Source: Myxococcota bacterium
GTDB taxonomy: Bacteria; Myxococcota_C; UBA6777
Length of the DNA stretch: 7,393 nt
Direction of reading: 5' to 3'
NCBI GenBank assembly: GCA_023150835.1
Contig: JAKLKB010000197.1
Location: forward strand, 1-7,393
Part shown: piece by piece, positions 80 through 7,361 of the stretch
How the letters are laid out: each line of letters begins with the position of its first letter
Numbering within the stretch: the first letter of the stretch is position 1
Made by a program: the position numbers and the translations under genes
Notes under the pieces: model-generated
What the model saw: only the letters and a program-made list of their open reading frames with translations
The model's database searches: none
What the model was told of the DNA's origin: nothing

Positions 80-3000
80 ATGGGCGCGCTTTCGAGTATG
101 GCCGTTCGGCGGGCCGTCACCTTTTCGATGCTTTATTTGATGATCCTCGGGTTTGGGATGTTCTCGTTTTCTCAACTCAAACTCGACTTGTTCCCCGAAC
201 TCAAATTCCCCACCATCGCCATCATCAACAACTATACAGGCGTCAGCCCCGAAGAGATCGAGACCTTGGTGTCTCGACGCATTGAATCTGCGGTGGCTTC
301 GGTAAAAAACGTCAAGCGGATCTCGACCACCGCGAAGCTTGGGGCTTCTTTGATGATCGTGGAGTTGGAGTGGGGCACCAATATCGATCAATCCATGATG
401 GATATCCGCGAAAAGATCGACCTTGTTCGCAAGTTGATCCCCGAAGAAGCACGCCAGCCGATCTTGTTTGCCTTCGATCCCTCGCTGCAACCGATCCTGC
501 TCGTCGCAGTCAACACAAAAGGCAACTTGATGCAGATCCAAGATCTGATCGATCGCCGCATCAAGCCGTTGATCGAGCGTTTGCCGGGGGTTGCGTCGGC
601 CAACATCACAGGCGGCTCGAAACGCGAGATCCAGATCATGGTCGATCCGATCAAGCTCCAAGGTTATGGCATCGCTTTGGTGCAAGTGCTACAAGCCCTC
701 AACGCAGAAAACGTTCAAGTCGCCTCGGGCATCTTGGAGCAAGGAAAGCGCGAATTTTCGTTGCGCACGATGGGCAACTTTACAGACGTCGATCAGATGA
801 AGCGCGTCGTGATCGGCTACAAAAGCCAAGGCCCGGGCGTCATGCCACAGCCGATCTTTTTGCAACAAGTGGCAACCGTGATCGATGGAGAAGAAGAAGA
901 AAAACGCGCCATCCGTTCGGACGGAAAGCCCGGCATGTTGTTGATGATCCAAAAACGCTCGGACGCCAACACCGTACAGGCCGTCAAAGCCGTCGAAGAC
1001 GACCTGCCCAAACTCAAAAAGCTGCTTCCCCCCGGCACCGACTTCAGCATCCTCTTCAACCAAAGCGATATCATCACACAATCGATCTCCAACCTGCAAA
1101 GCTCGGCCTCTCAAGCCTTTTTTCTTTCGGTGTTGGTGTTGCTGTTCTTTTTGCGGTCCTTTCGCACTTCTTTCATCATCGCCTTGTCGATCCCGATCTC
1201 TGTGATCGCGACCTTTAGCGTCATGTACATGGCCAAGATCACGCTCAACATTATCTCGATGGCTGGACTCGCCCTTGCTGTCGGGATGTTGGTCGATAAC
1301 TCGATCGTCGTGCTGGAGAACGTGTACCGCCACTTTGAAGAAGGCAAGTCCGCCGAAGAAGCCTCGATCCAAGGCAGCAAAGAAGTTGGGGTTGCGATCA
1401 TGGCCTCGACGCTAACGACCCTTGCGGTATTTATCCCGATCTTGTTTGTCCCCGGGATCGCGGGCGCATTGTTTCGAGATATGGTGATCACGATCTGCTT
1501 TTCGCTTACGGCTTCGTTGCTCGTCGCGATCACCTTGATCCCGATGATGTCTTCTAGGCTTCTCACGGACAGCAGCCGCCAGAGACACAAAAACCCCGGT
1601 GCCTTCGGTCGTATGGTCGAGGGTATGCTCGTTGCGATGGATCGGATGTATGTGGGTGTGCTGCGTTGGTCCTTGGTCTGGCGCAAAAGTACCATCCTGA
1701 TCGGCTTTTCCACCTTGATCGTCGTTGTGGTACTCGCTGGCTTGATGCAAACGGACTTTCTGCCCAAAACAGATGACAGCACGATCTTTCTACAGTACGA
1801 ACGCAGCCCGGGGACTTCTTTGCAAGAGACCTTGCGCACAGGCGACTACATGGAGCGCCTGCTTCGTCAAAAATACGGAAGTGCCGTAGAGTCGGTGATT
1901 ATCGAAGCAGGGGTTGGTGAGGGGTTTGCGGCTCTCTTTGGGAAAGGCTCGTATGCCGGACAGTTGCGTGCGCGGCTGTCTTCGTTAAGCAAGCGCAGCG
2001 TCGGCAAGTGGGATATCGTCGAAGAGATCCAGCGCATGTACGCACAAATCCCCGACCTTAAAGTCATGGTTCAAGAGATGGGCCCGGGAGCCTTCGGTGG
2101 GCAGGGCGATATCGATATCCAACTTTACGGATACGACTTTAACATCGCACGCGAACTGGCCGAACAAGTCAAGCGCGTCGTCAGCCAACTCCCCAACGTC
2201 ACCTCTGTGTCCTCTTCTCTCGAAGACGGAAAACCCGAGCTTCAGATCCAGTTCCACCGCGACCGCATCCACGCGCTCGGCCTCAGCCCGATCGCGATCG
2301 GAAACACCATCTCGACGGCCTTCAAAGGCTCGATCGCAACGCTGTTTCGAGACCGAGGCAGCGAATACAACGTCGTTGTCCGCTTCCAAGAACGCTACCG
2401 AAACAAGATCGAACACCTCAAGCGCCTGTTGATCACAACACCCACAGGGAAAAACGTTCCCCTCGAAACCATCGCAGATGTCAAGATGGCCCTTAGCCCC
2501 GTCAAGATCGAGCGCAAAGATCAACAACGCGTCGCCATCGTCGGCGTTAACATCACCGCAGGCTCGATGGGTAAGGTCGTTGAAAGTGTACGCAACGCGA
2601 TGGACACACAGATCAACATGCCTGCCGATTTTTATTACAAACTGGGCGGAAAAGCCGAAGACTTCATCACTTCGTTCCAATGGCTGGGTGTGGCCTTTTT
2701 GGTCTCGATCTTGTTGGTGTACATGGTGATGGCAAGTCAGTTTGAGTCGTTGTTTGCGCCGTTTGTGATCTTGTTTTCGATCCCGTTATCAGGGATCGGC
2801 GTGTTGTTGGCGCTGATCCTTACCAACACTCCGTTGAGCATTATGGCGGTGGTTGGGGTGGTGATGCTCGTTGGGATTGTCGTGAACAACGCGATCGTCT
2901 TGATCGACTTTATTATCCAGATCCGGCAAGAGCGCGAGATATCCGTGACAGATGCGGCTTTGGAAGCGGGTCGTGTGCGATTGCGACCGATCTTGATGAC

Positions 3001-3283
3001 CAGCGCCACCACCATCCTCGGGATGTTGCCGATGTCACTTGGGATCGGTGAAGGTGCGGAAAACTGGGTGGGTCTTGGCCGCGTTGTGATGGGCGGAATG
3101 ATTAGTTCGACCGTCCTCACCTTGGTGGTCGTACCCGTCTTTTATTGCTCTCTGTTTTTGACCTTCGAGCGCATCAAAGGCTTCTTTTCCCGAGGCTCCC
3201 GTCCCCCGTCATCGGGCCATCCCTCCGCGTCCTCGCAACTACCGCAACAAACCGACGATGCCTTTTCCGCCCCTTCCGCCTAA
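80..3283 (+). CDS. RND family efflux transporter permease (HAE-1/AcrB-like)
   Basis: Inner-membrane proton-driven exporter of 1067 residues, the usual length for the HAE-1 group that works with a periplasmic adaptor and an outer-membrane channel. The fold is visible: one N-terminal membrane helix (about 12-30), a large periplasmic loop (about 31-343), helices 2-6 (about 345-494), helix 7 (about 538-557), a second periplasmic loop, helices 8-12 (about 868-1030), then a Pro/Ser-rich cytoplasmic tail. Helix 4 has GMLVDNSIVVLEN, with D406 at the AcrB Asp407 position and N407 in place of Asp408. Helix 10 has GIVVNNAIVLIDF, with N936 or N937 where AcrB has its relay lysine Lys940. From family knowledge, this pattern is common in HAE-1 branches outside AcrB, so the pump is probably functional with a simpler relay. 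Substrate cannot be read from sequence; drug, metal or lipid export are all possible. Neither adaptor nor outer-membrane channel is in the window. Confidence 0.95.
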   Translation: MGALSSMAVRRAVTFSMLYLMILGFGMFSFSQLKLDLFPELKFPTIAIINNYTGVSPEEIETLVSRRIESAVASVKNVKRISTTAKLGASLMIVELEWGTNIDQSMMDIREKIDLVRKLIPEEARQPILFAFDPSLQPILLVAVNTKGNLMQIQDLIDRRIKPLIERLPGVASANITGGSKREIQIMVDPIKLQGYGIALVQVLQALNAENVQVASGILEQGKREFSLRTMGNFTDVDQMKRVVIGYKSQGPGVMPQPIFLQQVATVIDGEEEEKRAIRSDGKPGMLLMIQKRSDANTVQAVKAVEDDLPKLKKLLPPGTDFSILFNQSDIITQSISNLQSSASQAFFLSVLVLLFFLRSFRTSFIIALSIPISVIATFSVMYMAKITLNIISMAGLALAVGMLVDNSIVVLENVYRHFEEGKSAEEASIQGSKEVGVAIMASTLTTLAVFIPILFVPGIAGALFRDMVITICFSLTASLLVAITLIPMMSSRLLTDSSRQRHKNPGAFGRMVEGMLVAMDRMYVGVLRWSLVWRKSTILIGFSTLIVVVVLAGLMQTDFLPKTDDSTIFLQYERSPGTSLQETLRTGDYMERLLRQKYGSAVESVIIEAGVGEGFAALFGKGSYAGQLRARLSSLSKRSVGKWDIVEEIQRMYAQIPDLKVMVQEMGPGAFGGQGDIDIQLYGYDFNIARELAEQVKRVVSQLPNVTSVSSSLEDGKPELQIQFHRDRIHALGLSPIAIGNTISTAFKGSIATLFRDRGSEYNVVVRFQERYRNKIEHLKRLLITTPTGKNVPLETIADVKMALSPVKIERKDQQRVAIVGVNITAGSMGKVVESVRNAMDTQINMPADFYYKLGGKAEDFITSFQWLGVAFLVSILLVYMVMASQFESLFAPFVILFSIPLSGIGVLLALILTNTPLSIMAVVGVVMLVGIVVNNAIVLIDFIIQIRQEREISVTDAALEAGRVRLRPILMTSATTILGMLPMSLGIGEGAENWVGLGRVVMGGMISSTVLTLVVVPVFYCSLFLTFERIKGFFSRGSRPPSSGHPSASSQLPQQTDDAFSAPSA

Positions 3284-3616: not shown

Positions 3617-3624
3617 GCGGAGGA
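3617..3624 (+). promoter_or_regulatory. Strong Shine-Dalgarno that sets the start at 3632
   Basis: GCGGAGGA contains GGAGG (3619-3623), eight bases before the ATG at 3632. The earlier in-frame ATG at 3593 has only AAGG at 3584-3587 with five-base spacing. Starting at 3632 also puts the hydrophobic signal-peptide core closer to the N-terminus. Confidence 0.7.
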
Positions 3625-3631
3625 TACAGGG

Positions 3632-6553
3632 ATGCAGACAAGCGCAACGCAGGCGATCGAATGGATGCAGAGAAGCGCGAAACGAGCGGTTGGATGGTGG
3701 CGTTGCTTGCTCGCGGCACTGATCGCGATCGTAGGCGGAAGCGGGATACGCACCGCTCAAGCAGAAACACCGCCCGATCCAGTCTTTGAATTAAGCATCC
3801 TCTATACAACCGATATCAACGGTCAATTCCGCGACTTTCGATGCCGTCGACGCGATGTCGAAGGTTATCAACACGAAGCCGCCAAACGCGATGTCTCCAA
3901 CCTACTCTTCCAAGTCAACCGCATCCGCAAAGAGATCGTAGGCCGCTACATCGACCCCACCCGCAACCAAGACGCCAAACCTCTGCTCTTCAATACAGGC
4001 GATAACTTGGGGATCTCCCTCGCAGCCCGCTTTCTTTTGGAGTTCGAAGATCTGTCTGGCGTCGAGTTCATCGCCGAGGTTTTTCGGCGCTTTTCTTATG
4101 ACCTGATCGGGATCGGAAACCACGAGTTCTCCGTTCCCAACCGCAAAAAGCTCCAAGGCTTCATCGAACGCGCTGTCCTCGAAAAAGACCTCCGCTTCTC
4201 CGCCGCCAACATGGACGCCCCCGCCGACCACCCGATCGCCAAGCTGATCAACAAACAAGGCCCCGAAAAAGTCAAAGCCTTCATCTTCGATCAAACCTTC
4301 CGCCGCACCTTCAAAGTCAAAGACGCCACAGGCAAAGAAACCGAAAAGACCATCGAAAAAAAGATCAAAGTCGGCGCGTTTCACCTCCTCCCCAACGAGA
4401 TGGAAAAAAAACTCTCCCCCGCGATCGCCAAAGATCTCAAGTTCACCGATCCCGGCTCCAAAGCCAGCGAGATCGCAACGTGGCTGCGCGATGAAAAAAA
4501 AGTCGACGTGGTGATCATGCTTTCCCACCTCGAAGAAAGCAAAACCAACGGCGCAAAAGTCAAAGAAGTTCTCGGTAGCGCTTCGGGGATCGATCTGGTG
4601 ATCACCAACGAACTCCGAGACGGGGACAAGGCCACCTTCACAGGAACCTTTGATCGCGATGGCAAGGGCGTTTACATCGTCGGCGGAGCCGCACATGGTT
4701 CGCTGCTCGGTCGTGTCCGCTTGCGCGTCAGCAAACCCAAAGACGACGAAGTCGGAAAAGTCCTCTCCGCCCAAATCGACTCTATCCCCCTCAATGACGC
4801 CAACTACGACACCGAGCTACGACGCGAATTAATCAAGTGGGAGTCCTCCTATTGCCGCCGTTGGGGAACACCCCTTGGCAAGGGACGGATCCGCGACAAA
4901 TACAAGATGACTCAAGATCAATTCGCCGCCTATATGCTCAACACCATCCGCGAACTCACTCGCGCCGAGATCGCCATCATCAACAAAGGGGCCATCCGCA
5001 AACGACCCTTTGGAGACAGCGGACTCGCAGGATACGTCACCAAAGACGACCTCTATCGCGCCCTCCCCTTCAACGAAAAAATCGAAGTTCTGCGCGTCAA
5101 AGGCTCCGTCCTGAGCGGACTCAGCAGCGCCAGCGACAAATTCTATTTCGCAGGATTCGATGGCTCCCAAGTCAACGGGCGAGCCATCGAAGACACCCAA
5201 ACCTACACCGTCGCCACCATCAGCTTCGTCGCCAACAACAGAGAAGGCGGCTTTGAAAAAGATAACCTCGCAGAACGCCGACTCTTCGCTTACAGCGACC
5301 AAAGCAACGAAAAGATCCGCGATCTGATGATCCATCACTTCGCAACCAACGGCTTCCGACAACTCCCCAAAGGCCCCGCCCCTGCACCCCCCGATTCGAT
5401 GGACGAAAAAGACAAAAAAGTTTTCAAACGCAAAGAATTCACCAACGAAGAGATCCCCTTCACTGGGGACTTTGTGAACCTCGCCGATCGCGTGGCCTTC
5501 AAATGGACAGGCCGTGTTGAACTCAATTTCCGCTCAATCTTCCTTGGACCCGTAAATATCGGGACTTTCTACCAACAAAAAGACACCCTTAGCGGGGGCT
5601 TTTTTGAGAAATACGCCGGAACCTTCGCCGCCGAAACCAAGTTCCAAGTCGACACCCGCGCTCACCTCTGGGTCACCAGCATCAGCCTCAATTACGGGAT
5701 CGACGTCAGCCGCCAGTGGTCCCCCGGACCACCCGCCCAACCCTCCCGCGATCTGATCTTCCAAGAAAGTGATGACCGCGTCTCGTTTCGCACCGAATAC
5801 TCCTTCCGTTATTTTGAAGCCCTCTTCCCCGGAAAGCAGCGCTGGTTCTACACCAACCCCTTCGTAGAAGCGCAGTTTGACATCGAGATCACACGCGGCA
5901 GCCGCCCTGATATCGAACCCGAACGCGCTTTCAAAGTCTTGGGCGTCACCGAGATCTTCCAAAACAGCGAAGCCAAGGCCAAGTTGGGACTCAGCTTTCA
6001 GCCTTTCCGCGATTACCTGTTCAACCAAGCCCGCGAACAGGATGTCCAAAAACTCCAAGAAAAATTCCCCAAAGAAAAGATCCCCTCTTGGCAACCCGTC
6101 GACCTTCAGCTCAAGTTCGCCTTCGCTGTTCGCCGCCAATTGGCCTTGTTCTTGGTCCGCCAACCCAACTCCGCCCCCGTCGTCAACACCGACTTTAACA
6201 TCGGTTTTTCCGTCGAATACAAACTCAATACCTTTCGCCTCGGTCAGATCGGGAAAACCCCGATCACATGGGATTCTAGCGCAGAGTATCTGTTTACCGT
6301 GGTCGTCGCCCCCGACAAACCCGAACTCGCAGCCCTCTACATCCACGACCTCGCATGGGACAACAAGATCAGCTTCCAGATCGTCGGTGGACTCAAGCTA
6401 TCCTTGGGCCTGCGTTTCCTCGTATACTCCGGCTTTTTCCGCCGCGATCCCACCAAAGAATCCAGCCCCCTCGAACAAGGCCCCGTCGCCTTCCGCCTCG
6501 ACCCCAACATCAGCCTCAGCTTCGACTGGGGCGCACGTGGACAAGCCTATTAA
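3632..6553 (+). CDS. Secreted UshA/5'-nucleotidase-like protein with altered active site and C-terminal beta-barrel-like region
   Basis: A protein of 973 residues from ATG 3632 (986 from 3593). Residues 1-44 are a Sec signal peptide: basic stretch, core LLAALIAIVGG, AQA box with likely cleavage at A44/E45. Residues about 50-365 resemble the metallophosphoesterase domain of UshA/CD73: ILYTTDINGQF (D61), FNTGDN (D124), GNHEF (N163, H164), MLSHLEE (H299). About 395-550 resembles the 5'-nucleotidase C-terminal domain: AEIAIINKGAIR (445-456), LPFNEK (478-483). A Pro- and Lys/Glu-rich linker (about 580-608) leads to about 365 residues of alternating strands ending in Tyr, like an outer-membrane barrel. 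Family members hydrolyse nucleotides in the periplasm or at the surface using two metals. Here, by motif alignment, UshA His43 is Asn63, Asp120 is Ser167, and the GHxH histidines His252 and His254 fall at E327 and R329. Activity may be lost or changed. The mature part has only two cysteines (C71, C408), a possible disulphide. The nucleotidase homology is firm; the barrel is inferred. Confidence 0.85.
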   Translation: MQTSATQAIEWMQRSAKRAVGWWRCLLAALIAIVGGSGIRTAQAETPPDPVFELSILYTTDINGQFRDFRCRRRDVEGYQHEAAKRDVSNLLFQVNRIRKEIVGRYIDPTRNQDAKPLLFNTGDNLGISLAARFLLEFEDLSGVEFIAEVFRRFSYDLIGIGNHEFSVPNRKKLQGFIERAVLEKDLRFSAANMDAPADHPIAKLINKQGPEKVKAFIFDQTFRRTFKVKDATGKETEKTIEKKIKVGAFHLLPNEMEKKLSPAIAKDLKFTDPGSKASEIATWLRDEKKVDVVIMLSHLEESKTNGAKVKEVLGSASGIDLVITNELRDGDKATFTGTFDRDGKGVYIVGGAAHGSLLGRVRLRVSKPKDDEVGKVLSAQIDSIPLNDANYDTELRRELIKWESSYCRRWGTPLGKGRIRDKYKMTQDQFAAYMLNTIRELTRAEIAIINKGAIRKRPFGDSGLAGYVTKDDLYRALPFNEKIEVLRVKGSVLSGLSSASDKFYFAGFDGSQVNGRAIEDTQTYTVATISFVANNREGGFEKDNLAERRLFAYSDQSNEKIRDLMIHHFATNGFRQLPKGPAPAPPDSMDEKDKKVFKRKEFTNEEIPFTGDFVNLADRVAFKWTGRVELNFRSIFLGPVNIGTFYQQKDTLSGGFFEKYAGTFAAETKFQVDTRAHLWVTSISLNYGIDVSRQWSPGPPAQPSRDLIFQESDDRVSFRTEYSFRYFEALFPGKQRWFYTNPFVEAQFDIEITRGSRPDIEPERAFKVLGVTEIFQNSEAKAKLGLSFQPFRDYLFNQAREQDVQKLQEKFPKEKIPSWQPVDLQLKFAFAVRRQLALFLVRQPNSAPVVNTDFNIGFSVEYKLNTFRLGQIGKTPITWDSSAEYLFTVVVAPDKPELAALYIHDLAWDNKISFQIVGGLKLSLGLRFLVYSGFFRRDPTKESSPLEQGPVAFRLDPNISLSFDWGARGQAY

Positions 6554-6585: not shown

Positions 6586-6648
6586 GTAGGGGCGGTTGGC
6601 AAACCGCCCGATTATTGGGCAGCCACACCTGTCTGCCCCTACATTTTT
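6586..6648 (+). terminator. Multi-hairpin terminator-like structure after the nucleotidase-like gene
   Basis: An outer stem, GTAGGGGC (6586-6593) with GCCCCTAC (6635-6642), encloses two smaller hairpins. One is GGGCGGTT (6590-6597) with AACCGCCC (6602-6609) around a four-base loop. The other is GGGCAG (6617-6622) with CTGCCC (6633-6638). Outer and inner stems share bases, so they must compete in part. The structure is followed by ATTTTT (6643-6648) and begins 33 bp after the stop codon. Position and T-run suit a terminator. The near-symmetry and the shared repeat parts suggest it arose from a dispersed palindromic element. Confidence 0.55.
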
Positions 6649-6679
6649 ACGATAACTCAACGGGCGGATCTCGTCTGAG
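6611..6679 (+). repeat. Dispersed hairpin-plus-tail repeat, copy 2
   Basis: The head TTGGGCAGCCAC is preceded by CGAT four bases earlier, as at 6956 and 6879. The hairpin is imperfect here. A T-run follows, then the tail CGATAACTCAACGGGCGGAT plus CTCGTCTGAG (6650-6679), nearly the same as copy 1. The same order of parts (hairpin, T-run, tail) after both genes supports a true repeat family. Confidence 0.65.
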
Positions 6680-6866: not shown

Positions 6867-6883
6867 GCCTTGTGAAGCGATGG

Positions 6884-6917
6884 TTGGGCAGCCACGGGGG
6901 GCTGCCCCTACACTTTT
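6884..6917 (+). repeat. Perfect GGGCAGCC hairpin, copy 3 without tail
   Basis: GGGCAGCC (6886-6893) pairs with GGCTGCCC (6900-6907) around the loop ACGGGG, followed by CTACACTTTT. The 25 bases 6884-6908 are identical to 6962-6986. The tail module of the other copies is missing; unrelated bases follow. Confidence 0.75.
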
Positions 6918-6955
6918 CCGAATGCTCTGTGATCGAAGGAGAGCGCGAAGACGCT

Positions 6956-7023
6956 CGATTCTTGGGCAGCCACGGGGGGCTGCCCCACCCTTTTGACGAT
7001 CACGCACCCCGCGGATCTCGTAT
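6956..7023 (+). repeat. Perfect GGGCAGCC hairpin with tail, copy 4
   Basis: GGGCAGCC (6964-6971) pairs with GGCTGCCC (6978-6985) around ACGGGG. It is followed by CACCCTTTT and a divergent tail (6992-7023) that keeps CGATCAC and GCGGATCTCG. That tail is also the left half of the inverted repeat around the tandem array. Confidence 0.7.
6992..7023 (+). repeat. Left half of inverted repeat flanking the array
   Basis: TTTGACGATCAC, seven variable bases, then GCGGATCTCGTAT. The reverse complement of 7362-7393 has the same 12 and 13 bases with the same seven-base gap, giving 27 of 32 identical by eye. The two halves face each other across 338 bp that hold the tandem array. Confidence 0.75.
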
Positions 7024-7056
7024 GAGTATGAGGCCTTGTGGGCGGGATTGGGCGGA

Positions 7057-7290
7057 CAGCCTTTGCCCGACAGGGAAAACTTCGTTGAGGCGGACAAACA
7101 GCTTTTGCCCGACTGGGAAAACTTCGTTAAGGCGGACAAACAGCTTTTGCCCGACTGGGAAAACTTCGTTAAGGCGGACAAACAGCTTTTGCCCGACTGG
7201 GAAAACTTCGTTGAGGCGAACAAACAGCTTTTGCCCGACTGGGAAAACTTCGTTGAGGCGAACAAACAGCTTTTGCCCGACTGGGAGAAG
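7057..7290. repeat. 42-bp tandem repeat array, five full copies and one partial
   Basis: Copies begin at 7057, 7099, 7141, 7183, 7225 and 7267, exactly 42 bases apart; the last breaks down after about 22 bases. Copies 2 and 3 are identical, as are 4 and 5. Only four positions vary among full copies. The unit reads CAGCTTTTGCCCGACTGGGA then AAACTTCGTTRAGGCGRACAAA. The period is a multiple of three, so four of the six frames stay open through the array, encoding 14-residue repeats such as LLPDWENFVKADKQ (+) and EVFPVGQKLFVRLN (-). None has a convincing start with a ribosome binding site, so translation is not supported. Confidence 0.9.
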
Positions 7291-7361
7291 AGCTTTTGTG
7301 TGGGAGAACAGAGAATTCCGAGGCAGCGAGGGCGTATGGGACCATAGCGCATAACGGGGTG

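Follow-up and report, generated by a model that had tools for sequence, protein, structure and literature searches.

What kind of protein results when a 5'-nucleotidase-like region is followed by a C-terminal part resembling an outer-membrane barrel, and what might it do? The question is raised by a gene in the window, by which we mean the whole 7,393-nucleotide stretch of Myxococcota DNA analyzed here. A sequence-only reading had proposed an ORF with a signal peptide, a nucleotidase-type region and a long C-terminal extension. All of these elements are present in a 973-residue protein, with the extension beyond the nucleotidase region amounting to 368 residues (Table 1). The cysteine-free character of this extension and its terminal Tyr, also pointed out earlier, held up, since the only cysteines of the protein are at positions 25, 71 and 408. 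An alternative upstream start (ATG 3593) would give an ORF of 986 residues. We prefer ATG 3632 because it has a likely ribosome-binding site.

Table 1. Features of the fusion gene and its product, in window coordinates.
Feature	Position	Strand	Basis
GGAGG, likely ribosome-binding site of ATG 3632	3619..3623	+	sequence
Complete gene, 973 aa	3632..6553	+	ORF; homologues span 916-1107 aa
Sec signal peptide, residues 1-44, predicted cleavage between TAQA and ET	3632..3763	+	by eye; homologues also have a hydrophobic N-terminus
Metallophosphoesterase-type domain, about residues 53-370, dimetal site partly lost	3788..4741	+	family profile vs 3gve, 1hp1, 1ush; motif tables
D61-I62-N63, Asn instead of the His of canonical DxH	3812..3820	+	motif tables
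Cys71, in every member readable here, G103 too; may pair with Cys408 in a disulfide	3842..3844	+	alignment
Asp124, GD motif kept	4001..4003	+	motif tables
Asn163-His164, GNHE motif kept	4118..4123	+	motif tables
His299, SH motif kept	4526..4528	+	motif tables
E327-L328-R329, replacing H-x-H/Q of the GHxH motif	4610..4618	+	motif tables
Cys408, invariant in the family	4853..4855	+	alignment
5'-nucleotidase C-terminal domain (PF02872), about residues 425-540	4904..5251	+	E 6e-13
Pro-rich charged linker, residues 575-605	5354..5446	+	variable length among homologues
Predicted DUF3078-type outer-membrane barrel domain, residues 606-973, about 12 strands drawn	5447..6550	+	profile comparison, alternation

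The C-terminal part is a real domain, neither a read-through product nor a chimera, because it is conserved across 13 family sequences and has a dN/dS of 0.033 relative to a sister genome whose copy is 96% identical at the amino acid level. The N-terminal part gave 0.071 in the same comparison. Since both values are low, both halves are being maintained, as measured on this one genome pair.

A Pfam scan of the window copy gave no credible C-terminal match. Across the family, nine of the 12 members matched DUF3078 (PF11276) weakly, the best at E 0.0015. The G002 copy, at 25.6 bits, passed the curated cut-off of 25 bits; the other members fell below it, and the window copy was unmatched. We compared the family barrel profile with ten DUF3078 proteins using hhalign and obtained 230 collinear columns with a probability of 76% and a score of 44.4. 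Controls stayed well short of this score: the maximum was 26.3 over 100 column shuffles and 29.9 over 100 block-shuffles, and the reversed profile gave 19.5. With the G103 member (described below) added, the probability rose to 92.1% over 229 columns. The relationship is remote, at about 15% identity. DUF3078 itself aligned with DUF481 (PF04338) at a probability of 99.4%. DUF481 has been catalogued as a putative outer-membrane pore family with 12 strands (PMC4827864), and a DUF3078 protein of P. gingivalis has been named an outer-membrane protein (PMC9722745). The DUF3078–DUF481 relation was also apparent from L083–L085 and L131–L150, where two DUF3078 proteins match the Pfam models of both families, one with a DUF481 score slightly below the cut-off.

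The alternating polar and apolar strands noticed by eye in this region proved to be well above chance. The family-averaged alternation score of the C-terminal part was z 8.7 against shuffles, compared with −1.3 for the N-terminal part; for a single sequence the values were 4.7 and −0.8. The C-terminal score is similar to those of DUF3078 and autotransporter domains, whereas soluble nucleotidases score below 0. Taken with the DUF3078 relation, this agrees with the proposal of an outer-membrane-barrel-type domain of about a dozen strands, a number drawn by eye from the alternation peaks. An AlphaFold2 run on two sequences (the window copy and L006) reached a pLDDT of only 28.6 and was discarded, so the barrel fold rests on sequence comparison. 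A PDB search with the barrel profiles returned chance matches only and found no solved structure of the family barrel or of the DUF3078 group. The sequence comparisons pointed neither to a soluble beta-sandwich nor to a known periplasmic domain, the two identities that the sequence-only reading had set against its own proposal. That the C-terminal region is remotely related to DUF3078, and is not an autotransporter domain, is thus well supported at the profile level, and we infer that residues 606–973 would insert into the membrane as a barrel. Two further DUF3078-like proteins are encoded in the same genome (L079:4010-5986 and L080:3888-4982), of which one has a different N-terminal region, some 300 residues long, and the other is little more than a barrel.

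The N-terminal part has the UshA/CpdB-like layout of a signal peptide, a metallophosphoesterase domain and then PF02872. The last of these was matched in 12/12 members, and PF00149 at E < 1 in 3/12. Searched against the PDB, the family profile matched YfkN (9e-16) and UshA (5e-10). AlphaFold2 modeling of this part from three sequences (pLDDT 44) gave Foldseek matches to YfkN (3gve) and UshA entries, which agrees with the sequence result and adds little to it.

A complete dimetal site (DxH, GD, GNHE, H, GHxH/Q) was not found in the family. The residues compared here are those that we take to match the metal ligands of UshA. The DxH His is lost in all 11 readable members, replaced by Asn, Tyr, Met, Gly or Gln; the remaining copy (G002:C547) is cut by a contig end at this position. 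GHxH is replaced in 12/12, with Glu or Asp at the first position in eight and Arg at the second in nine. GD, GNHE and SH are retained in 9/12, and most of these ligands are gone as well in the C56/C244/C29 clade and in G103. Two other fused proteins, G057 and G049, have likewise lost the DxH His and GHxH. By comparison, 23 of 26 aligned unfused nucleotidases keep the His of DxH together with the first His of GHxH; for the four fused lineages against these 26, Fisher's test gave P = 0.0013, a rough guide given that the set is non-random and phylogenetically non-independent. Degeneration of the catalytic site is well supported by these alignments, which indicate that the metal site is lost in part in most copies, leaving one half-site, or almost wholly, as in C56 and G103. 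The earlier description of an enzyme-like passenger therefore stands as regards a nucleotidase-type ectodomain and fails as regards a normal nucleotidase, since DxH and GHxH metal ligands are gone family-wide. Two other nucleotidases (L159:505-2997 and L162:1420-3843) have GGMSH instead of GGHSH, and each carries a long stalk, either acidic or Pro/Thr-rich, with another C-terminal domain after it.

Cys71 and Cys408 both occur in every family member readable at these positions, G103 among them, and are the sole cysteines of the mature window protein. A disulfide between them is plausible. Catalysis by UshA needs a large domain rotation (PMC7922932). It is speculation that such a bridge might limit or shape an UshA-like rotation.

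The family was present in all five genomes examined of the source phylum, at one to four copies each, with complete members and full-length paralogues of 916–1107 residues. Three copies (C158, C196 and C56) are in the window's own genome, and the nearest named relative, at 96% identity, is Myxococcota bacterium KLAP109. In a tree built from the five genomes the clades mix genera, so the duplications look old. When 386 genomes were searched with the C-terminal profile, matches were confined to the source phylum, G103 (E 6.9e-8) and G318. The G318 match (E 7e-4) was set aside as a short stretch of a 1526-residue protein without the look of a nucleotidase. Aligned to the family, the G103 protein (836 residues) matched across 733 columns at a probability of 99.9. 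A full-length profile run on 385 genomes, with at most two candidates scored per genome, showed ordinary nucleotidases to be widespread; among the candidates scored, barrel-spanning matches came from the source phylum and G103 only. G057 (778 residues) and G049 (772 residues) each encode a nucleotidase with a strand-rich C-terminal part. The G057 fusion matched PF11276 at E 6e-4, and the two C-termini aligned jointly gave 83.8% against the family barrel and 83.0% against DUF3078. G103 holds a homologous fusion in a second lineage, and G049 and G057 similar fusions in two more, the latter two being less certain because their barrel likeness is weak when each sequence is taken singly. By this count similar combinations occur in about four distant bacterial lineages. 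Scans of viral contigs found no relatives.

We favor, with slightly better than even confidence, the reading that the protein is a pseudo-nucleotidase anchored by its barrel. It most likely faces the periplasm and would bind a ligand or a protein. The protein would be exported by Sec, its C-terminal part would fold into a barrel of about 12 strands as suggested by the DUF3078 homology, and the Pro-rich linker would tie the UshA-like two-domain region to it. A barrel with an even number of strands has its two termini in the periplasm. For this reason, and because no pore helix is evident, the periplasmic face is the most likely location of the UshA-like region. With the dimetal site partly or almost wholly lost, ordinary 5'-nucleotidase activity is most likely gone, and what selection maintains would be a binding module for a nucleotide, another phosphorylated ligand or a partner protein, held at the barrel or gating it. 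A more far-reaching version, which we regard as rather unlikely, is that the fusions form a multi-phylum family of receptors or gated channels of the outer membrane. The nucleotidase fold, having lost catalysis, would then be a sensor or plug on the periplasmic side, and its binding of a nucleotide-like ligand would open the DUF3078 barrel.

The order of signal peptide, passenger and C-terminal barrel, together with the long Pro/Thr-rich linkers of some homologues, would also fit an autotransporter-like protein whose nucleotidase-like part is passed to the surface by the barrel or its insertion machinery. We think this improbable. The sequence-only reading had used the term autotransporter-like, but as a statement of family it did not survive comparison: hhalign gave a probability of 1.6–1.8% against PF03797, versus 76–92% against DUF3078, and the region preceding strand 1 shows no evident conserved pore helix. 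The passenger also has a fold of its own and two conserved cysteines; if these formed a disulfide in the periplasm, passage through a pore of 12 strands could be impeded. PlpD, long thought to be such a case, proved to keep its enzyme-like domain, which precedes a C-terminal barrel, in the periplasm (PMC11116518). Doubts about the barrel itself go further. Some C-terminal strands are only weakly amphipathic and no structure model backs a barrel, which would suit a soluble or surface beta-rich domain outside the membrane; that we consider very unlikely, however, in view of the collinear DUF3078 relation that passed its controls and an alternation unlike that of soluble nucleotidases.

Loss of catalysis can be questioned as well. 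Asp124, Asn163, His164, His299 and Glu327 might hold one metal, with Arg329 replacing the other, and a different phosphorylated substrate might be cleaved at the outer membrane. One-metal activity is possible because most copies keep the D, N, H, H half-site and 8/12 carry Glu or Asp at the first GHxH His; the recurrent Arg at the second position (9/12) and the N-terminal omega of 0.07 point the same way. However, the C56/C244/C29 clade and G103 retain the same architecture with almost no ligands, so activity is not the common function, and we hold an altered but active enzyme to be unlikely.

Both parts of the protein are related to known families. Like UshA, CpdB and YfkN (PF00149 plus PF02872), to which it is detectably homologous, the window protein has a signal peptide and the same two-domain order, but it lacks the DxH and GHxH ligands and carries the additional barrel and the two conserved cysteines. 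About 230 barrel columns align in order with DUF3078, which goes with DUF481 (TCDB 1.B.75). The ten DUF3078 proteins compared are stand-alone barrels of about 280–350 residues, whereas the window barrel follows a 560-residue N-terminal region and most family copies fall under the Pfam cut-off. PlpD, which combines a patatin domain, POTRA and an Omp85 barrel, offers a parallel to the arrangement proposed here, in that its barrel keeps the enzyme-like domain before it in the periplasm (PMC11116518), but both of its parts are unrelated to those of the window protein, in which no POTRA was seen. Type Va autotransporters share only the order of parts, and the window barrel has neither profile similarity to PF03797 nor an evident pore helix.

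As the sequence-only reading had supposed, no described family with a nucleotidase–barrel architecture turned up in the Pfam and NCBIfam scans or in the open-licence literature searched, which is weak evidence of absence; a survey of ushA-like and cpdB-like genes across genomes contains neither the term "barrel" nor "outer membrane" (PMC10454023). Both families joined in the fusion, UshA-type nucleotidases and the uncharacterized DUF3078/DUF481 barrels, are widespread. The fusion appears in about four lineages, with the catalytic site degraded each time and with strong selection in the one pair tested. This offers a concrete handle on the role of DUF3078-type barrels and perhaps a case in which an enzyme fold has been put to other use at the outer membrane.

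Gene neighbors in the window's genus, in its clade and in G002/G004 indicated no function. An RND efflux-type permease gene lies just upstream on the same strand (window 80-3283); it adjoins the fusion gene in both genomes of the genus and not in G003. An IstB/DnaC-like ATPase gene is convergent to the fusion gene in the window's clade, and SulP and sulfur-transport genes are divergent from it in G002/G004. Beside the C56-clade copies of three genomes is a gene for a small cysteine-rich, apparently secreted protein (L035:8649-9092, L066:10373-10816 and L060:6766-7356). Downstream of the fusion gene, a 44-bp element with the core GGGCAGCCAC...GCTGCCCC occurs at three dispersed places in the window (6609-6652, 6878-6921 and 6956-6999), and there is a tandem array of a 42-bp unit in about 5.5 good copies (7014-7331).
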